Part shown: positions 7,431 to 13,762 of the stretch, piece by piece
How positions within the stretch are numbered: position 1 is the first letter of the stretch
Layout: each line of letters begins with the position of its first letter
Assembly: GCF_008580665.1 (NCBI RefSeq)
Contig: NZ_BKDJ01000006.1
Span: 49,212 to 113,211 of the forward strand
From: Zafaria cholistanensis
GTDB taxonomy: Bacteria > Actinomycetota > Actinomycetes > Actinomycetales > Micrococcaceae
Length of the DNA: 64,000 nt
Reading direction: 5' to 3'
Notes under the pieces: model-generated
Told to the model about the DNA's origin: nothing
The model's input: the letters and a program-made list of their open reading frames with translations, nothing else
Databases searched by the model: none
Program-made: the position numbers and the translations under genes

Positions 7431-9734
7431 CTATTTGGGAAAGCCTGCGGAAGTTACTTTGCCATCCGGGCTCTGTTCTGGATTCCGGTTGCTCAACCAC
7501 GTGTCCAATACTTCGGCAGGGACTGGCCGGGAGATGAAATAGCCCTGCACCAAGTCGCAGCCGTACTCGCGGAGGGCGCGGTACGCTCTTTCGTCTTCGA
7601 CCCCTTCCGCTGTCATTTCCAGTCCCACGCTGTGGGCCAAATGAATGGTGGAGGCCACCAAGGCGGTGGCGCGCTCATCGTCCATCATGGCGCTGACAAA
7701 GGAGCGGTCGAGCTTGATCTCGTCGATGGGCAGTTCGCGCAGGTAGGACAAGGAGCTGTAGCCCGTGCCGAAGTCGTCCACCGCTACCCGGACACCCATT
7801 TCCCTCAGGGCGCTCAGCGTGGTGCAGGCGCGGCTGCGGTCAGCGACAAGGACGTCCTCCGTGATTTCCAGGACGAGCATGGAAGGGGACAGGCCGCGGG
7901 CCCGGGTCATTGCTGCCACCTGATCCGGCAGTCGGGCGTCCATCGCGGAACTCGCCGGCACGTTAACGGCCACTGACAGGTGCTGGGGGCCCGAGGCCCA
8001 CACAGCGGCCTGGTCCAGTGCCTTGATGAGAACAACGTTGGTCAGCGCGGGCATCAGCCCTGCTTCCTGGAAGTACTTCAGGAAAGCATCCGGCTGAAGC
8101 AGACCCAAGGCCGGGTGCTCCCAGCGAACCAGCGCTTCAACACCGCGCACGCGTCCTGTTTCGGGTTCAACTTTTGGCTGGAAGTGAAGAACCAGCTGGT
8201 CATTCGACAGCGCGTCGTTCAGGGTTTGCAGACTGCAGAACGGCTGGAGAGCGGCGTTGGCCGGGTCCTCCACGTACAGGGCATGCCCGCTACGCGTGGA
8301 TTTGGCCGAGTACAGCGCCACGTCGGCCTTGCGCAACAGGACGTCCAAGTCGCGCCCATGCTCCGGGTGGCAGGCAATCCCAATGCTTGCATTCACATGA
8401 ACCGTAATGCCTCCCAGGCTGTAGGGCTCTGCCAGGGCGGTGCGTATCTTCACTGCCATGTCCTGCGCTTCACGGGGACCGCAGGAACCGGCGTACATCA
8501 CGAATTCATCGCCTCCCATACGCGCAAGAAGCGTACCGGCCCCCAGCTGTGTGGAAAGCCGGGCAGCCACCTGACGCAGGAGGTCATCCCCGGCCTGATG
8601 CCCCAGCCCGTCATTGATCTCCTTGAATTTGTCGAGATCCAGCAGCAGCACCGCGCTCGGCTGATTTCCGCTCGCCGTAAGTTGTTGAGGCACGGCCGCG
8701 TAGAGGGCGCGTCTGTTGGGGATACCCGTCAGGTCATCGGTCCGCGCTTGGCTGTTGGCCCGGGACAGCTCGAGCCGCTGCCGGAATACAAGCGGCACCA
8801 CGGCCAACGCCAGGGTAAGGCTGGCGAGCACTACCGCGGGAAGCATGAGCGGGCGTTGCGAGGCCAGGACCAGAACACCCAACCCGGCGCTCGTGGCCAG
8901 GGCAGGGACAGCCTGTCCGGATTTGGATATCCGGACACGGACGTCGGGCCCCGCCGAATGCGCTTGGAGCAGCGTCCAGGCGCCGACCATTGCGTTCCCG
9001 AGCGCCCACGGGGCGACCAGTGTCGTGTCCAGGAAATCCACGGCGTTCATTTCCAGCAGAAGATAGGCGACGTCCCCTCCGGCATAAGCCAGGAGCCCCA
9101 GTCCAACAAGCCACCACCCCCTGCTCGTGGAACGCCCGGAAGCGGCGATTCCCACGACAACAGCCACAAGCATGAGATCCATGAGCGGATACGCGGCGTC
9201 TATGGCCGCGCCCAGCGATGGCGGGCCCTGGAGAACCGAAACCAATTTGGGTCCCAATACAGCCAAAAGGGCAGCCGCTGCACCGAGGGCCCCCACGAGG
9301 CTGTCCAACAGGATAATTTTGGCCAGTCCGCGCAGCCGTGTCCGGATAACAACGGACAAAGCCGCCAGCATGAGCACGTAGAACGCAATGTATGCACCCT
9401 CCGCTATTGAATACCGGGGGGCATCCTTTCCGGCCGTCATATGCAACACGTCCCAGGTGTATCCCACGGCTTGGCAGGACAAGGCCGCCGCGAAGAAGAC
9501 CACCTCCCGTCCCCCTGCCCTGCGGTACACCACCGACCAGCCCGCCAGGGCCGGCAGCCACATGGTTAGCAGGCCCAGCATCCGGTCGATGAAGACGTCA
9601 AAGGGTCCTGTGGACGGCAAAATGACGACCGCCGCGTACATGCCCGCTACGGCGATCAGAATCCCAGGCAGTAACCACTGGCTGGAGACCAGCCTTGCAG
9701 GCCGCCGTGGCTCCGTAGCACCCTGATACATCAT
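7431..9734 (-). CDS. Membrane-anchored GGDEF-EAL protein (diguanylate cyclase / c-di-GMP phosphodiesterase)
   Basis: 767 residues from ATG 9734, behind a G-run ribosome site; an in-frame TTG lies one codon earlier. The N-terminal third has about nine membrane helices of MASE-like type. A GGDEF domain follows with intact RMGGDEF near residue 405. An EAL domain has EALVRW near 530, the metal/acid motifs LEITED, DDFGTGYSSL, IKLDRSF and TAEGVED, so both halves look active. No RxxD inhibitory site is seen before GGDEF. It makes or breaks cyclic di-GMP at the membrane. Its start faces, across a 730-bp gap, a TasA-like matrix gene, which fits a biofilm or surface role, though direct control is inference. 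Confidence 0.93.
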   Translation of the reverse strand: MMYQGATEPRRPARLVSSQWLLPGILIAVAGMYAAVVILPSTGPFDVFIDRMLGLLTMWLPALAGWSVVYRRAGGREVVFFAAALSCQAVGYTWDVLHMTAGKDAPRYSIAEGAYIAFYVLMLAALSVVIRTRLRGLAKIILLDSLVGALGAAAALLAVLGPKLVSVLQGPPSLGAAIDAAYPLMDLMLVAVVVGIAASGRSTSRGWWLVGLGLLAYAGGDVAYLLLEMNAVDFLDTTLVAPWALGNAMVGAWTLLQAHSAGPDVRVRISKSGQAVPALATSAGLGVLVLASQRPLMLPAVVLASLTLALAVVPLVFRQRLELSRANSQARTDDLTGIPNRRALYAAVPQQLTASGNQPSAVLLLDLDKFKEINDGLGHQAGDDLLRQVAARLSTQLGAGTLLARMGGDEFVMYAGSCGPREAQDMAVKIRTALAEPYSLGGITVHVNASIGIACHPEHGRDLDVLLRKADVALYSAKSTRSGHALYVEDPANAALQPFCSLQTLNDALSNDQLVLHFQPKVEPETGRVRGVEALVRWEHPALGLLQPDAFLKYFQEAGLMPALTNVVLIKALDQAAVWASGPQHLSVAVNVPASSAMDARLPDQVAAMTRARGLSPSMLVLEITEDVLVADRSRACTTLSALREMGVRVAVDDFGTGYSSLSYLRELPIDEIKLDRSFVSAMMDDERATALVASTIHLAHSVGLEMTAEGVEDERAYRALREYGCDLVQGYFISRPVPAEVLDTWLSNRNPEQSPDGKVTSAGFPK

Positions 9735-10466
9735 CAACCCCCCACAGCCTTGGGCCTTCTACCCTCAAAAGGCGGGATACGTTCGGCCCGAGATTGCCAC
9801 TGTCCGCTGCACGGCGCTCTATGGAACGCCTGCATCCTGCGGTGTAAAGAAACGCGGCACAAAGCAAAACACGGGATGTCCCCAACCTACCCGGCCCCAG
9901 GGGGACTGTAAAAGCGATGGATGAAAGCCTGGCCCCATCCGGGAGGCGGCCGCTTTAGGGAGCACAGCCGCACGCGGGCCGCCTTTGCGAACAACAAGTC
10001 GGTGTATCCGCGTTCGGCGTCGTTCCGTCCCGCCTGCAGTGGCGCCATGGAGGAGAACGAACGCCCGCCTTGGAACGGCTGGAAAGTTTCGCTCCCGCGA
10101 TCCGCGGGCCCCCACCATCCCCTCTTGGCGGGGCGGGTGCCGAAGGATCCGAAAGCGATTCCGCGCCAAACTCCCTCAGGCACCCGTGAGGGTGCACGTC
10201 TTGGGCATAACGGGACCGCGGGGACCAGCCTTTGACTCCCCTTCGGGTAAATACTTTGTAAATCACGCTAAATTCCCTAGACAAGACGGATACATGTCAT
10301 GACATACTTCCGATTAGGTCGCCGGGGGGAACCAGCAATATCTAAGTGTCAACAGGAACTTTGGGGGCCGCCAGCAGCATCGGAATTTTCAATCCCGTGC
10401 TGCTCGTGGGGGCCTGTTGCATCCCGGGAGCAGAGCGGGTCGGCCTAAACCACGAAGGAATAGCTC
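9735..10466. other. Long divergent intergenic region with a structured leader before the TasA-like gene
   Basis: 732 bp without a credible gene. On the plus strand it contains many hairpins: GCACCC-GTGA-GGGTGC at 10180-10195, and AGCAGCA/TGCTGCT arms at 10373-10379 and 10398-10404. It also has the strings CGCTAAATTCC (10266-10276) and GGGGGGAACCA (10324-10334). These recall pieces of c-di-AMP (ydaO) riboswitches, and a GCCGAAGG...AAACTCCCTCAGGCA pattern near 10140-10182 recalls glycine riboswitches. Neither is complete by eye. A cis-regulatory RNA is plausible but unproven. Confidence 0.45.
10294..10305. promoter_or_regulatory. Perfect 12-bp palindrome, possible operator
   Basis: ATGTCATGACAT is self-complementary and lies 162 bp before the TasA-like gene within AT-richer sequence. 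It is a candidate dimeric repressor site; the regulator is unknown. Confidence 0.35.
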
Positions 10467-11114
10467 ATGCGTGCTCCCAGTTCCCGTACCAGTAAGATTG
10501 TCGGCTTCACCGCCGGGCCACTGGCCGTCCTCGCCGCCGGGGCGATGGTCTGGCAGGGCTCCACCGCGGCCTTCACCGCCAACACCAGCACCGCCAACAA
10601 CTGGGCCACCGGTCAGATTACTCTCACTGACAACGACGTGGATGGGGCAACTTTCGCCGTTTCCGGCCTTGCCCCGGGCGATACCGGGGCCAAGTGCATC
10701 ACCGTCACTGCAACATCCACGGTCAATGTGACCGGCAATCTCTACGCCTCCGTAACGGGTCTCACTGGCGGCCACGATGCCAGTAGCGTGGACTTCAGCG
10801 ACCGGCTGATGCTGAAGATGGAAGCTGGCAGCTTCAGCACCCCGGGCGCCACCGCCGCTAACACAGACTGCTCCGACTTCCTAAAGACCGGCGACATCTT
10901 CTCCAGAAACGCACTGTCAACCTTGGCTTCAACGACGGCAACGACGCCTGCGGGAGCTGGGTCAGCTCCTGGAAAACAAACGACTGTGGTTGTGTACAAA
11001 GTCAGCTATGACTTCGACACCCTGGGCCTTACCCGGGAGCAGGAGAACGCACTCATGGGCCAATCCACCGGCGCGACGTTGGTGTGGGAACTGAAGGCCG
11101 GCAGCAGCGCCTAA
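10467..11114 (+). CDS. TasA/camelysin-like secreted protein with SipW-type signal peptide
   Basis: 215 residues, with GAAGGAA seven bases before the ATG. Residues about 9-33 are a signal segment (KIVGFTAGPLAVLAAGAMVW) followed by GSTAAFTANTSTANNWATG and ITLTDND. The pattern of a hydrophobic segment, then AAFT and a TG(N)I-like strand with D-N-D, is that of SipW-dependent signal peptides on TasA, camelysin and related fibre proteins. Two cysteines (SGLAPGDTGAKC and NTDCSDF) may form a disulfide. The mature part looks all-beta, and the family forms extracellular matrix or fibres. The next gene encodes a SipW-type signal peptidase, its probable processing enzyme, 24 bp downstream and likely co-transcribed. 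Confidence 0.8.
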   Translation: MRAPSSRTSKIVGFTAGPLAVLAAGAMVWQGSTAAFTANTSTANNWATGQITLTDNDVDGATFAVSGLAPGDTGAKCITVTATSTVNVTGNLYASVTGLTGGHDASSVDFSDRLMLKMEAGSFSTPGATAANTDCSDFLKTGDIFSRNALSTLASTTATTPAGAGSAPGKQTTVVVYKVSYDFDTLGLTREQENALMGQSTGATLVWELKAGSSA

Positions 11115-11138
11115 ATCGCCGCCACTTTTCGGGCAGTC

Positions 11139-12674
11139 GTGAACGCGGCCCGCAACGACACCCCTGCACCCCCAGCCCGGCGGTCCCCGCCGGGCTGGGG
11201 GTCGTTGTTGCTGGCCGCCGTTTCACAGGCCTACCTGGTGATCCTGTGCACCTTGGCCGGTGCTGCTCTGCTGCCCGGATTGTTCGGCTGGCACGGGACC
11301 GTGGTGCAGACCGGGTCCATGCAACCGCACATCGCTCCGGGCGACGTCGTGGTGCTTTCACCACTTGCCGAGCAGGATCTGATCCCGATGAACGCGGTGG
11401 TGCGGTTCAGCACCACCGCACCGGACGGAACCGGGCAGGAACGAACACCGGTCCTGCACCGGGTCACCGCCGCCCACGATGACGGAACCTACACCACGGC
11501 CGGTGACGCCAACCCCGACCCGGATCTTAAACCGCTGCACCGTGAACAGATCACCGGCATGGGACGGCTGCTGGTGCCCTACATCGGCTTGCCGGGCCTC
11601 TGGTGGAACACCGGCGACTATCTGCCTTTGAGCCTGTGGCTGGCCGGGACACTGTTGGCCCTCATCGCCGTCTCCCGTATCCGCCTCCACGACCCCGAAA
11701 ACCACGACAGTGGACACGATGAAAGCGCCACAGGCCCATTAGGGACAGAGGACACGAAAGAACGTGTCAGTCATGCCCCCCCGCACCGGCCCGCTCCCCC
11801 CCACACCGGTGACAGCGAACCGGAGAATGACCGTGACAAGGTACTGGCCTGGATCAGCGGCCCCGCCTTCCATAACGCTGAATCGGCACCGGCTACAGGA
11901 CGCCGCGTGGCCCGCCGCGCCGTCTTCGGACTGGCAGGGACGGCGGCACTCACGGGCCTGGCGGCCTCCCCTGATACGCGTTCCAACGCCGCGCTCACCG
12001 CCCGCACCAGCACCGGCACCAGCTTTGCCACAGCATCATCCTTCCCGCCCTCCCTCGGTCGGGCAGCAGCCTTCGCACTGCTGGCCCAAGTCAAAGTCGA
12101 AGACAGGCTGACGGGCAAAAACCCGGTGGCATCCTCGGTTTCGGGCCTCATCGGTACAAGTACAAGTGGAAGCACCATTACGGGTTACCCAACCACTCAC
12201 CTAAACAGCAAGGACGCCATCGACGCCATGACGGACGCCCGCGCCTTGTTCAGTGAACTGAAAGCCAAAACAGCCACCACTACTTTGGCCACCCCGTCCC
12301 TGTCAGGAACCATCACGCCCGGCGTTTACAGCTATCCCTCTGGTGATCTCACTTTGGGCAACCTGACCTTGGACGCCAAGGGCGATCCCCACGCGGTGTT
12401 CATCATCCGGGCCAAAAGCCTGGCTACTGCGTCCAGTTCTCCCGGCACCACTATCAGCCTGGTCAACGGCACCAAGCTCGGGAACGTTTTTTGGTGCGCT
12501 GACAACACCGCCAAGATCCTCGCCAACAACAAGGTAGAAGGTACGTGGATAGCCGGCCGCACCGCACAGTCGGACGGCGGGATCACTCTGAAAGGCCGTC
12601 TGATAGCCGTCGGTGACAGTTCAACGACAGGCAATATCAGCACCAGTAGCGACACCATCGCCATCCCCACCTAA
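11139..12674 (+). CDS. Signal peptidase I (SipW/ER type) fused to ice-binding-like DUF3494 domain
   Basis: 511 residues in one frame from GTG 11139. Part 1 (1-190): a membrane helix about 22-44, then catalytic TGSMQPHIAPGD (Ser near 59) and VLHRV (His near 107). The His in place of Lys marks the SipW/ER class. A second helix lies about 161-183. Part 2 (190-258): a polar linker rich in H, P, D and E. Part 3: GRRVARRAVFGLAGTAALTG about 254-278, a twin-arginine-like third membrane segment. Part 4 (about 305-511): a DUF3494 ice-binding-like beta-solenoid with ITPGVYSYPSGDL, LTLDAKGDPHAVFI and KLGNVFWCADN. Predicted topology puts both the peptidase site and the DUF3494 domain outside. I do not know this fusion. 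A truncated transposase starts just after the stop. Confidence 0.85.
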   Translation: MNAARNDTPAPPARRSPPGWGSLLLAAVSQAYLVILCTLAGAALLPGLFGWHGTVVQTGSMQPHIAPGDVVVLSPLAEQDLIPMNAVVRFSTTAPDGTGQERTPVLHRVTAAHDDGTYTTAGDANPDPDLKPLHREQITGMGRLLVPYIGLPGLWWNTGDYLPLSLWLAGTLLALIAVSRIRLHDPENHDSGHDESATGPLGTEDTKERVSHAPPHRPAPPHTGDSEPENDRDKVLAWISGPAFHNAESAPATGRRVARRAVFGLAGTAALTGLAASPDTRSNAALTARTSTGTSFATASSFPPSLGRAAAFALLAQVKVEDRLTGKNPVASSVSGLIGTSTSGSTITGYPTTHLNSKDAIDAMTDARALFSELKAKTATTTLATPSLSGTITPGVYSYPSGDLTLGNLTLDAKGDPHAVFIIRAKSLATASSSPGTTISLVNGTKLGNVFWCADNTAKILANNKVEGTWIAGRTAQSDGGITLKGRLIAVGDSSTTGNISTSSDTIAIPT

Positions 12675-12675
12675 C

Positions 12676-13395
12676 ACCAGCCCCTCCACGCCCAAGACCT
12701 TGGTGAACGCGACCATCGAGTTCCGCCAGACCGGGGACCTGGACCGGTACGAACAGCGCATTACCGAACGCTCCAAGTACCTGCTCACCCCCAAAGACAC
12801 CCGCGATGAGAAGGGCGCCGCGCGCTGGCGCTGCCCGGCCACCGGCCCCTACCCCGACCTTTCCTGCAGCCTCCGGCCCACCAAACCTGCCGCCGGCGGG
12901 AAGAGGACCGGGCTGGGGATGCCCGCGTTCCGGCCCACCACTCCGGTCCTCACCCCGCCTACCATGCCGGATCGGATCTGCACCAACACCTCCGGCACCT
13001 CCTTCCCCGCCACGGCCGGGGCGAAGTACGCCCAGAAACTCCAATACAAGACTGATGGCTGGCAGAAGCTTTACTCCCACGCCCGCAACAGCATCGAAGG
13101 CTTCAACGCCTACGTGAAAGACGCCGGGCGCGAAGACCTGGAAAACCCCGGACGGCGCCGGGTCCGCGGCTACGCCAAGCAGCTGCTGCTCACCACCCTG
13201 TCCGTGGTCTCGGCAAACCTGCTCAAAATCCGCACCTGGCACAGCGAACAAACCCGCATCCCGGCGCCGGAGGCCACCAACCCGTCCAAGCTCCCCGGCA
13301 AGCGCCGGGCCCCGCGCACCCCCGCCCGCGACGACCTGCGCACCTACACCCCCAACCCCGCAGCCCCGCCACCGGACACACCCCAAGCCGCCTGA
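12676..13395 (+). pseudogene. Transposase remnant, 5'-truncated
   Basis: The open frame after the previous stop encodes about 239 residues with KYAQKLQYKTDGWQKLYSHA, RNSIEGFNAYVKDAGREDL, RRRVRGYAKQLLLTTLSVVS and NLLKIRTW. This resembles the C-terminal part of large actinobacterial transposases, where a conserved Glu in an (I/V)E(G/A)FN motif belongs to the catalytic triad. No N-terminal domain or start codon is present; the homologous sequence seems to begin within about 20 bases of the neighbouring stop codon. The tail is Pro/Arg-rich. An inverted repeat follows at 13450-13479. It is inactive as it stands. The exact IS family was not determined. Confidence 0.65.
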
Positions 13396-13678
13396 CCCCC
13401 AGCCCCAACCCCGGGGGCGGGCGCGGCACCGAACTGAATAAACACCAACGGCTCCGAAGGAACACCACACCTCGGAGCCACACCCATGCCCAAAAACACC
13501 CTGGACAGCCCCACCAGGGTAAACCGGGCACCGGAAACCCCCACACGCACGCCCCGAGCCCTGCGAAACGTCCCAAAACACGAAAAAACCGGCTGCCCCT
13601 CTCGGGACAACCGGTTCTTCCTACGCACGTCGGGAGTTTCGCAAACCCAGTACCCTGAGTTTCACAAACATCCCTCTG
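13396..13678. other. Intergenic region between transposase remnant and tRNA-Leu
   Basis: Holds an 8-bp inverted repeat GGCTCCGA/TCGGAGCC (13450-13457 and 13472-13479), the tRNA-Leu terminator (13583-13616), and a pair of near-identical 13-mers, GAGTTTCGCAAAC at 13633 and GAGTTTCACAAAC at 13657. No gene is seen. Confidence 0.5.
13583..13616 (-). terminator. Rho-independent terminator of tRNA-Leu
   Basis: Read leftward: AACCGG ... CCGGTT arms with an inner CCC/GGG pairing, followed directly by six T residues (the A-run at 13583-13588). It lies 63 bp after the tRNA 3' end. Confidence 0.75.
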
Positions 13679-13762
13679 TGCGCGAGGGGGGACTTGAACC
13701 CCCACGCCCTTGCGGGCACTGGCACCTGAAGCCAGCGCGTCTGCCAATTCCGCCACTCGCGC
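13679..13762 (-). tRNA. tRNA-Leu (anticodon CAG)
   Basis: 84-nt class II tRNA. Acceptor arms GCGCGAG/CTCGCGC with discriminator A, D-loop GGCGGAATTGGCAGACGCG, and anticodon loop TTCAGGT inside CTGGC/GCCAG (CAG reads CUG). The variable arm is long and the T-arm is GGTTCAAGTCCC. CCA is not encoded. Such tRNA 3' ends are common integration sites, and a surface-protein and transposase segment ends 0.3 kb downstream of it. Confidence 0.95.

Follow-up and report, generated by a model that had tools for sequence, protein, structure and literature searches.

A SipW-like signal peptidase fused to its own predicted substrate recurs beside TasA-like genes in actinobacteria

Results

A signal peptidase and a DUF3494 domain share one reading frame

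We analyzed a stretch of 64,000 nucleotides from Zafaria cholistanensis (contig NZ_BKDJ01000006.1, here called the window) and describe two adjacent genes on its forward strand, the first encoding a TasA-like protein and the second a signal peptidase fused to a DUF3494 (ice-binding-like) domain (Table 1). The fusion gene starts with GTG and contains 511 codons without an internal stop, confirming the initial annotation of this DNA, which had proposed a single uninterrupted frame for both halves. One full-length copy is present in the 3.29-Mb genome.

The motifs TGSMQP (residues 58-63) and VLHRV (residues 105-109), from which the initial annotation had recognized the peptidase, lie in a half that matches the NCBIfam models TIGR02228 (44.5 bits, E 1.5e-11) and NF046067 (SipW, 38.7 bits); the E value for Pfam Peptidase_S26 is 0.29. 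Since both NCBIfam scores are below the curated whole-protein cut-offs (51.85 and 190, respectively), we call the peptidase SipW-like rather than SipW. S60, H107, D123 and D129, which we take to be the catalytic residues from what is generally known of endoplasmic reticulum (ER)-type peptidases, are identical in all 31 aligned proteins and show the Ser/His (not Ser/Lys) active-site pattern of the ER/SipW type. The C-terminal part agrees with the earlier DUF3494 assignment, since residues 340-492 score 70.2 bits with Pfam PF11999 (Ice_binding), whose gathering cut-off is 28.7.

An AlphaFold2 model of the fusion protein, computed from an alignment of 31 rows, contains three membrane helices, a region of low confidence at residues 276-300 and a confident domain from about residue 305 to 511. 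Comparison of the peptidase core with solved structures revealed a signal peptidase fold (4n31: Z 8.9, 2.8 Å, 86 residues; human SEC11C, 7p2q: Foldseek E 9.5e-4), and the DUF3494 model superimposes on the ice-binding protein 7bwx with Z 30.1 (1.4 Å, 192 residues). Judged by sequence and model, the first half is an ER/SipW-type signal peptidase with predicted cleavage activity, and the head is a DUF3494 domain with putative ice binding. The number of helices places the linker on the predicted cytoplasmic side, and the predicted topology supports the earlier proposal that protease core and DUF3494 domain share the outer face. Third-position GC content is the highest of the three codon positions in the peptidase (0.82) and DUF3494 (0.71) parts; it is not the highest in the linker (0.61 vs. 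0.72 and 0.60) and around helix 3 (0.77 vs. 0.79).

Table 1. Features of the gene pair in the window (↓, predicted cleavage; pLDDT, predicted local distance difference test)
Feature	Position	Strand	Basis
TasA-like gene, 215 aa, proposed filament subunit, SipW-type signal STA↓AFTANTSTANNW	10467..11114	+	
Fusion gene: signal peptidase, linker, internal signal sequence and DUF3494, 511 aa	11139..12674	+	open frame
16-bp GC-rich hairpin with T-containing tail in the first fusion codons	11168..11202	+	possible attenuator
Membrane helix 1, residues 20-48	11196..11282	+	AlphaFold2 helix
Signal peptidase core, residues 52-147	11292..11579	+	fold match range
Peptidase residues S60, H107, D123, D129	11316..11318, 11457..11459, 11505..11507, 11523..11525	+	
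Membrane helix 2, residues 161-184	11619..11690	+	AlphaFold2 helix
Polar linker, residues 185-252, predicted cytoplasmic	11691..11894	+	mostly pLDDT <50
Membrane helix 3, residues 253-276, proposed internal signal sequence	11895..11966	+	AlphaFold2 helix
SipW-type site SNA↓A (residues 282-285) with predicted cleavage between 11990 and 11991	11982..11993	+	aligned to 44 further fusions and to 41 TasA-like proteins
TasA-like (donor-strand-like) segment ALTARTSTGTSF, residues 285-296	11991..12026	+	segment comparison
DUF3494 (ice-binding-like) head, residues 302-511	12042..12671	+	Pfam 340-492; fold range 302-511

The fusion recurs in other genomes with different cargo domains

At the family level, 194 of 395 genomes match one or the other half somewhere. 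Peptidase and DUF3494 were found in one open reading frame (ORF) in genomes G258, G160, G005, G025 and G075, and in a shortened frame in G028. A Pfam search with ten relatives identified DUF3494 (two), Laminin_G_3 (four) or the Ig-like Big_7 (four) as the domain behind the peptidase. A scan of genome contigs with the single protein yielded no relative; a scan of named public genomes with a 13-row peptidase alignment (A1) did, and the results concern 80 of 129 relatives. Fusions were defined by a tail of at least 90 residues behind the peptidase match. This applies to 44 of the 80 returned loci, including L108, which ends at the contig end; the 36 non-fused loci have tails of at most 70 residues (35 residues in L097). 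The sets L031-L070 and L071-L150 partly overlap, and loci were not counted twice.

Hosts of the fusions include Arthrobacter, Pseudarthrobacter, Kocuria, Paenarthrobacter, Cellulomonas, Labedella, Curtobacterium, Nocardioides, Glycomyces and others, together with several metagenome-assembled genomes (MAGs), one of them of Patescibacteria (L136). At the order level, such a peptidase (E<=1e-20) is present in 39 of 396 genomes. Since the architecture recurs across further genomes and genera, a chance or artefactual fusion was ruled out. The initial annotation had described DUF3494 as the fused domain, which is correct for the window; in the family it is only one of several exchangeable cargos. 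Local profiles assigned the cargos of the 45 fusions (window included) to DUF3494 (16), Big_7 (15) and LamG (9), leaving five unclassified.

A tree of 107 rows was calculated with a quick method and only the Shimodaira-Hasegawa-like approximate likelihood ratio test as branch support; 14 order-level rows were labelled by hand (three "LamG?", four "fused_other", two "long_tail_noTM", five "mini_tail"). The 16 DUF3494 and 15 Big_7 fusions fall within one set of 34 rows (support 97), and LamG fusions adjoin this set and also occur elsewhere. The eight labels require 17 changes on the tree, compared to a mean of 55.0 after shuffling. The tree, which was used for this point only, indicates that the cargo changes behind related peptidases.

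Some peptidases carry hardly any cargo. In L160, L165, L167 and L169, which belong to one order-level genus, and in L156, helix 3 and a cleavage-like site are followed by just 17-20 residues. TasA-like genes adjoin four of these mini-tail peptidases (L165, L167, L169 and L156).

In the Patescibacteria frame (L136:160-1290), a SipW-like peptidase comes with a third hydrophobic segment and a start resembling TasA/camelysin, AYFSSQATISGNTFSAG; in the tree it is separate from the actinobacterial fusions. The fusion frames of L081, L084 and L088 appear broken or cut short, and broken TasA-like copies lie beside the fusion in L087 and L088, as if the pair were at times lost or the sequence contained errors. 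The gene pair is also located on two Arthrobacter plasmids (L206, L207), and on pAsp15-1 genes for an ice-binding family protein and a class F sortase lie downstream of it; two further plasmid matches came from Halorientalis and Pseudarthrobacter. In the two Arthrobacter plasmid records (TMP15, A. alpinus) the fusion is annotated as "Ig-like domain-containing protein" with the peptidase half unnamed, and the preceding gene is a "hypothetical protein", which in the TMP15 record stands at the place of the TasA-like gene of G127:C2.

A SipW-type site lies between helix 3 and the cargo

The initial annotation had noted the third membrane segment and missed the SipW-type cleavage site at its end. 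In all 45 fusions, hydrophobicity downstream of the peptidase peaks in a stretch in front of the cargo (mean hydropathy 1.63-3.35), and a SipW-like site comes after this stretch. The pattern after this helix, S/A-x-A↓A-F-T-x-x-T..N.[ST]-[WF], is common to the fusions and the TasA-like protein encoded upstream. A tight version, A-x?-[FL]-[TS]-x-x-T, was detected at the junction of 39 of the 45 fusions; among 307 windows of 40 residues from the rest of the cargo, four contain it. At P-1, 42 fusions have Ala and three Gly, and at P-3, 37 have Ser or Ala; both columns were outside the positioning score, and their residues fit the usual signal-peptidase rule. P2' is Phe in 43 fusions and Leu in two. 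The site scorer uses mature-side residues, so that Phe at P2' is partly selected by the scorer, unlike P-1 and P-3.

Stand-alone DUF3494 proteins served as control. The 21 such ORFs of the same family score 5.5-8.0 compared to 7.5-12 for the fusions, 43 of which reach at least 9.5 (L199, which has no hydrophobic segment, was left out, and L192, a long multi-domain ORF, was kept). By eye, the signal of most stand-alone proteins has an ordinary A-x-A site at its end, and the domain begins a few residues later. Since the element is present in the fusions and missing from the stand-alone proteins, it belongs to the peptidase fusion and not to DUF3494. An NCBIfam search of the junction fragments gave no signal-peptide model.

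The N-termini of TasA-like proteins and cargos have on average 5.7 of 11 residues in common, the best match elsewhere in the cargo 4.4. Compared with the rest of the cargo, the junction resembles the TasA-like protein better at 28 of 40 loci, equally well at seven and less well at five. The twin-arginine-like third segment of the initial annotation is present in the window and in a subset of the relatives: an RRx[hydrophobic] start of helix 3 was found in six of 16 DUF3494 fusions (window included) and in one of the 29 other fusions.

A TasA-like gene accompanies the peptidase

The gene 24 bases upstream of the fusion encodes a protein with the SipW-type A↓AF signal STA↓AFTANT, as the initial annotation had stated. 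Its model (24 rows, mean pLDDT 72.5) is closest to the solved structures of TasA (5of2: Z 9.8, 3.2 Å, 140 residues; 5of1: Z 9.4) and also matches the fibre form 8aur (Z 8.3; next row 6.8). The score with the Pfam camelysin profile PF12389 is 17.1 bits, below the cut-off of 22.5, and NF046066 matches one of 24 TasA-like relatives (E 0.033), not the protein of the window. The model predicts the fold of a TasA-like filament subunit.

In 40 of the 44 database fusions, no more than 345 bases separate the peptidase match from the end of a TasA-like gene, located by motif and not by profile. Among the 395 family genomes the peptidase half is present in 30 (E<=1e-15) and a TasA-like gene in 31 (E<=1e-10), and all 30 lie within the 31. 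G157 has a peptidase with a short tail, and in the family some copies of the TasA-like gene are split or contain a stop. In the genome of the window there is one TasA-like gene, and one match to an ER-type peptidase is full-length; the three remaining TIGR02228 matches are confined to model positions 10-73. As the sole enzyme of this type beside the sole TasA-like gene, the fused enzyme is likely the processor of both the TasA-like protein and its own cargo.

Other elements around the locus

In the stretch that separates the TasA-like stop codon and the first helix (200 bases at most), hairpins with a stem score of at least 9 were found at 18 of 41 loci. When the window was fixed at 117 bases and the same score kept, 11 of 41 loci have one compared to 44 of 1638 control windows of those loci. 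Because hairpins recur at this place in relatives, they may determine how much TasA-like protein is made per fusion protein. The hairpin of Table 1 could cause the fusion to be expressed less than the TasA-like gene, a lead and not a result. A sigma-70 promoter scan of positions 9740-13000 found none.

Just before the TasA-like gene, on the opposite strand, lies a gene for a GGDEF-EAL protein (7431-9737; Pfam EAL 240.6 bits, GGDEF 139.8 bits), a possible link of cyclic-di-GMP to surface filaments. The end of the fusion is overlapped by an ORF (12613-13395, plus strand) that looks like a transposase remnant (DDE_Tnp_1_6, E 0.086, below the cut-off). A tRNA-Leu (cag) gene (13678-13762, minus strand) separates the fusion locus from downstream genes that were named FHA, phosphatase and FtsW-like from their ORFs.

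Discussion

The fusion, its recurrence with swapped cargos, the common site, the linkage to TasA-like genes and the folds were all observed by computation. From them we infer cleavage, its mode in cis or in trans, release, a role in filaments and a ligand of the head. We read the gene pair, with a probability of roughly 0.6, as a two-gene unit for a surface filament, in which the peptidase is fused with its own substrate and the freed cargo would act like TapA. We are rather confident of one part, that the peptidase carries its own substrate; for the other, that the cargo is a TapA-like initiator or cap, we consider the odds to be even.

According to this model, the first gene would supply the TasA-like filament subunit and the second an ER/SipW-type peptidase joined covalently to its substrate. 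Helix 3 would be an internal signal with a SipW-type site at its end; behind it come a TasA-like N-terminal segment and then the folded head. The peptidase would act in trans on the TasA-like protein and would cut its own cargo after A284, in cis or in trans. The enzyme would remain in the membrane, and the cargo would leave with the N-terminus ALTARTSTGTSF. With a donor-strand-like N-terminus on a head of foreign fold, the freed cargo may start, cap or anchor the TasA-like filament, and the head would give the filament a binding function.

The closest known arrangement is tapA-sipW-tasA of Bacillus subtilis, as far as excerpts of three articles describe it (PMC10151520, PMC9674648, PMC10269814). 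There TasA is cut at TWA↓AFND; aromatic P2' residues (Phe in TasA) hinder LepB, SipW handles TasA, and the P2 Trp of TasA is blamed as well (PMC10269814, excerpt). This Trp is a feature of B. subtilis TasA and not of the site in the fusions described here. In TasA fibres, the donor strand is formed by residues 28-38 and completes the subunit that follows (PMC9674648, excerpt). TapA, encoded beside sipW, has been proposed to start the filament; its N-terminus AFHDI is nearly identical to AFNDI of TasA, and it is proposed to stay outside the filament because its immunoglobulin (Ig) fold is complete (PMC10151520, excerpt). Common to both systems, on the evidence of these excerpts, are an ER-type peptidase beside a TasA-fold subunit, A↓AF substrate sites and a minor partner that joins a TasA-like N-terminus to a complete fold of another kind. 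In Bacillus, however, TapA is encoded by a separate gene, whereas here peptidase and TapA-like partner form one chain, the head can be DUF3494, LamG, a set of Ig repeats or another part, the TasA-like gene precedes the fusion, and the hosts are mainly actinobacteria. The fusion resembles TapA, which was compared by description, in that the mature N-terminus is TasA-like and attached to a domain whose fold is complete, an argument about how it may work; it differs in that the cargo is not a separate protein and the head is DUF3494 instead of an Ig fold. We favour a covalent SipW-TapA-like arrangement.

Other systems share single traits. Bacillus cereus sipW-tasA/calY likewise has SipW-processed filament proteins and with CapP an assembly regulator, which is encoded separately and works by another mechanism; in the excerpt of that article no SipW fusion is seen (PMC13082335). 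The head has the fold and profile of DUF3494 ice-binding proteins (PF11999), but the stand-alone members have ordinary signal peptides and no SipW-type element. SipA of Streptococcus pyogenes (4n31), compared by Protein Data Bank title and fold, is a signal peptidase homologue needed for pilus polymerisation, so that this fold is likewise tied to surface filaments; it is a separate protein of another pilus system. In open-access literature (titles and abstract starts for the broader topics) we found no description of a fusion of peptidase and DUF3494 or another cargo, in line with the initial annotation, which knew of none; the papers found on both signal peptidases and ice-binding proteins deal with a competence pilin and with microalgal secretion.

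Several observations weigh against our interpretation. Family profiles for both the peptidase half and the TasA-like gene remain below cut-off. The window's sequence has the longest end branch (0.82) among its neighbours in the tree, and its site is one of the two with Leu instead of Phe at P2'. The match between the TasA-like protein and the cargo N-terminus of the same locus is weak, as 117 of 10,000 shuffles were as high, phylogeny not being removed. The mini-tail peptidases are without the T..N..W part of the segment, which argues against a simple donor role. Finally, the genes do not always come together: no TasA-like gene was found at L081 and L136, the extra family genome with a TasA-like match (G177) has a weak one with a stop and is without this peptidase, and G023 has a weaker fusion-like ORF (L069:3208-4335) and no TasA-like match.

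The initial annotation had regarded the DUF3494 domain as an adhesive or ice-binding arm of the protease. The protein would then be one uncut chain, with DUF3494 or another head permanently held by the membrane peptidase to adhere or to hold substrate; core and head on the same predicted face of one chain and a TasA-like substrate encoded next to it agree with this. The SipW-type site at the end of helix 3, however, makes the cargo more likely a cleaved substrate than a permanent arm. The site is conserved in front of unrelated heads, missing from stand-alone DUF3494 proteins and retained by some peptidases that have no head, and we regard the arm as unlikely. Those mini-tail peptidases, with helix 3, site and 17-20 further residues, would suit a pseudo-substrate tail, in which helix 3 and the site fill the active site and keep the enzyme inactive until the TasA-like protein arrives and the head is incidental. 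The flexible junction of low model confidence fits such a tail, but neither the conserved TasA-like segment past the site nor the recurrence of binding-type heads would be explained, which leaves this explanation with a small chance.

To two further explanations we give very little weight. The twin-arginine start of helix 3 raises the question of whether the segment is a twin-arginine translocation (Tat) signal that exports the DUF3494 head in folded form, for which dual-targeted three-helix proteins offer a comparison. Such a start is missing from most DUF3494 fusions and from all but one of the others, and later cleavage would be compatible even with Tat export. This is the least probable of the readings considered. 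Hardly more probable is that the gene of the window is a decaying relic: its long branch, the altered P2', a linker with third-position GC no higher than at other positions and the transposase remnant behind it point in this direction, but the frame is open, S60, H107, D123 and D129 are intact, the adjoining TasA-like gene is intact and the DUF3494 model is confident.

The filament unit with a self-processed cargo can be extended, although we would put this extension at somewhat less than an even chance. The self-processing peptidase would itself be the precursor of the filament initiator, presenting its head at the membrane exit and coupling cleavage to the start of the filament. Ice-binding-like, lectin-like and Ig-repeat heads would be swapped, and some members would release a donor peptide of 17-20 residues, as if in the mini-tail enzymes only the donor peptide mattered.

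Peptidase and substrate in one chain, the latter as predicted, are a real and recurrent arrangement, undescribed as far as the literature was searched, and a variant of the SipW/TasA/TapA kind. The records of the Arthrobacter plasmids can be corrected accordingly, both for the "Ig-like domain-containing protein" and for the "hypothetical protein" in front of it. Since two adjacent genes supply peptidase, substrate and filament subunit, cis cleavage and filament initiation are directly testable. If our interpretation is true, these bacteria have a signal peptidase that carries its own substrate, and TasA-type filaments would extend to actinobacteria, where they would be equipped with exchangeable functional heads.
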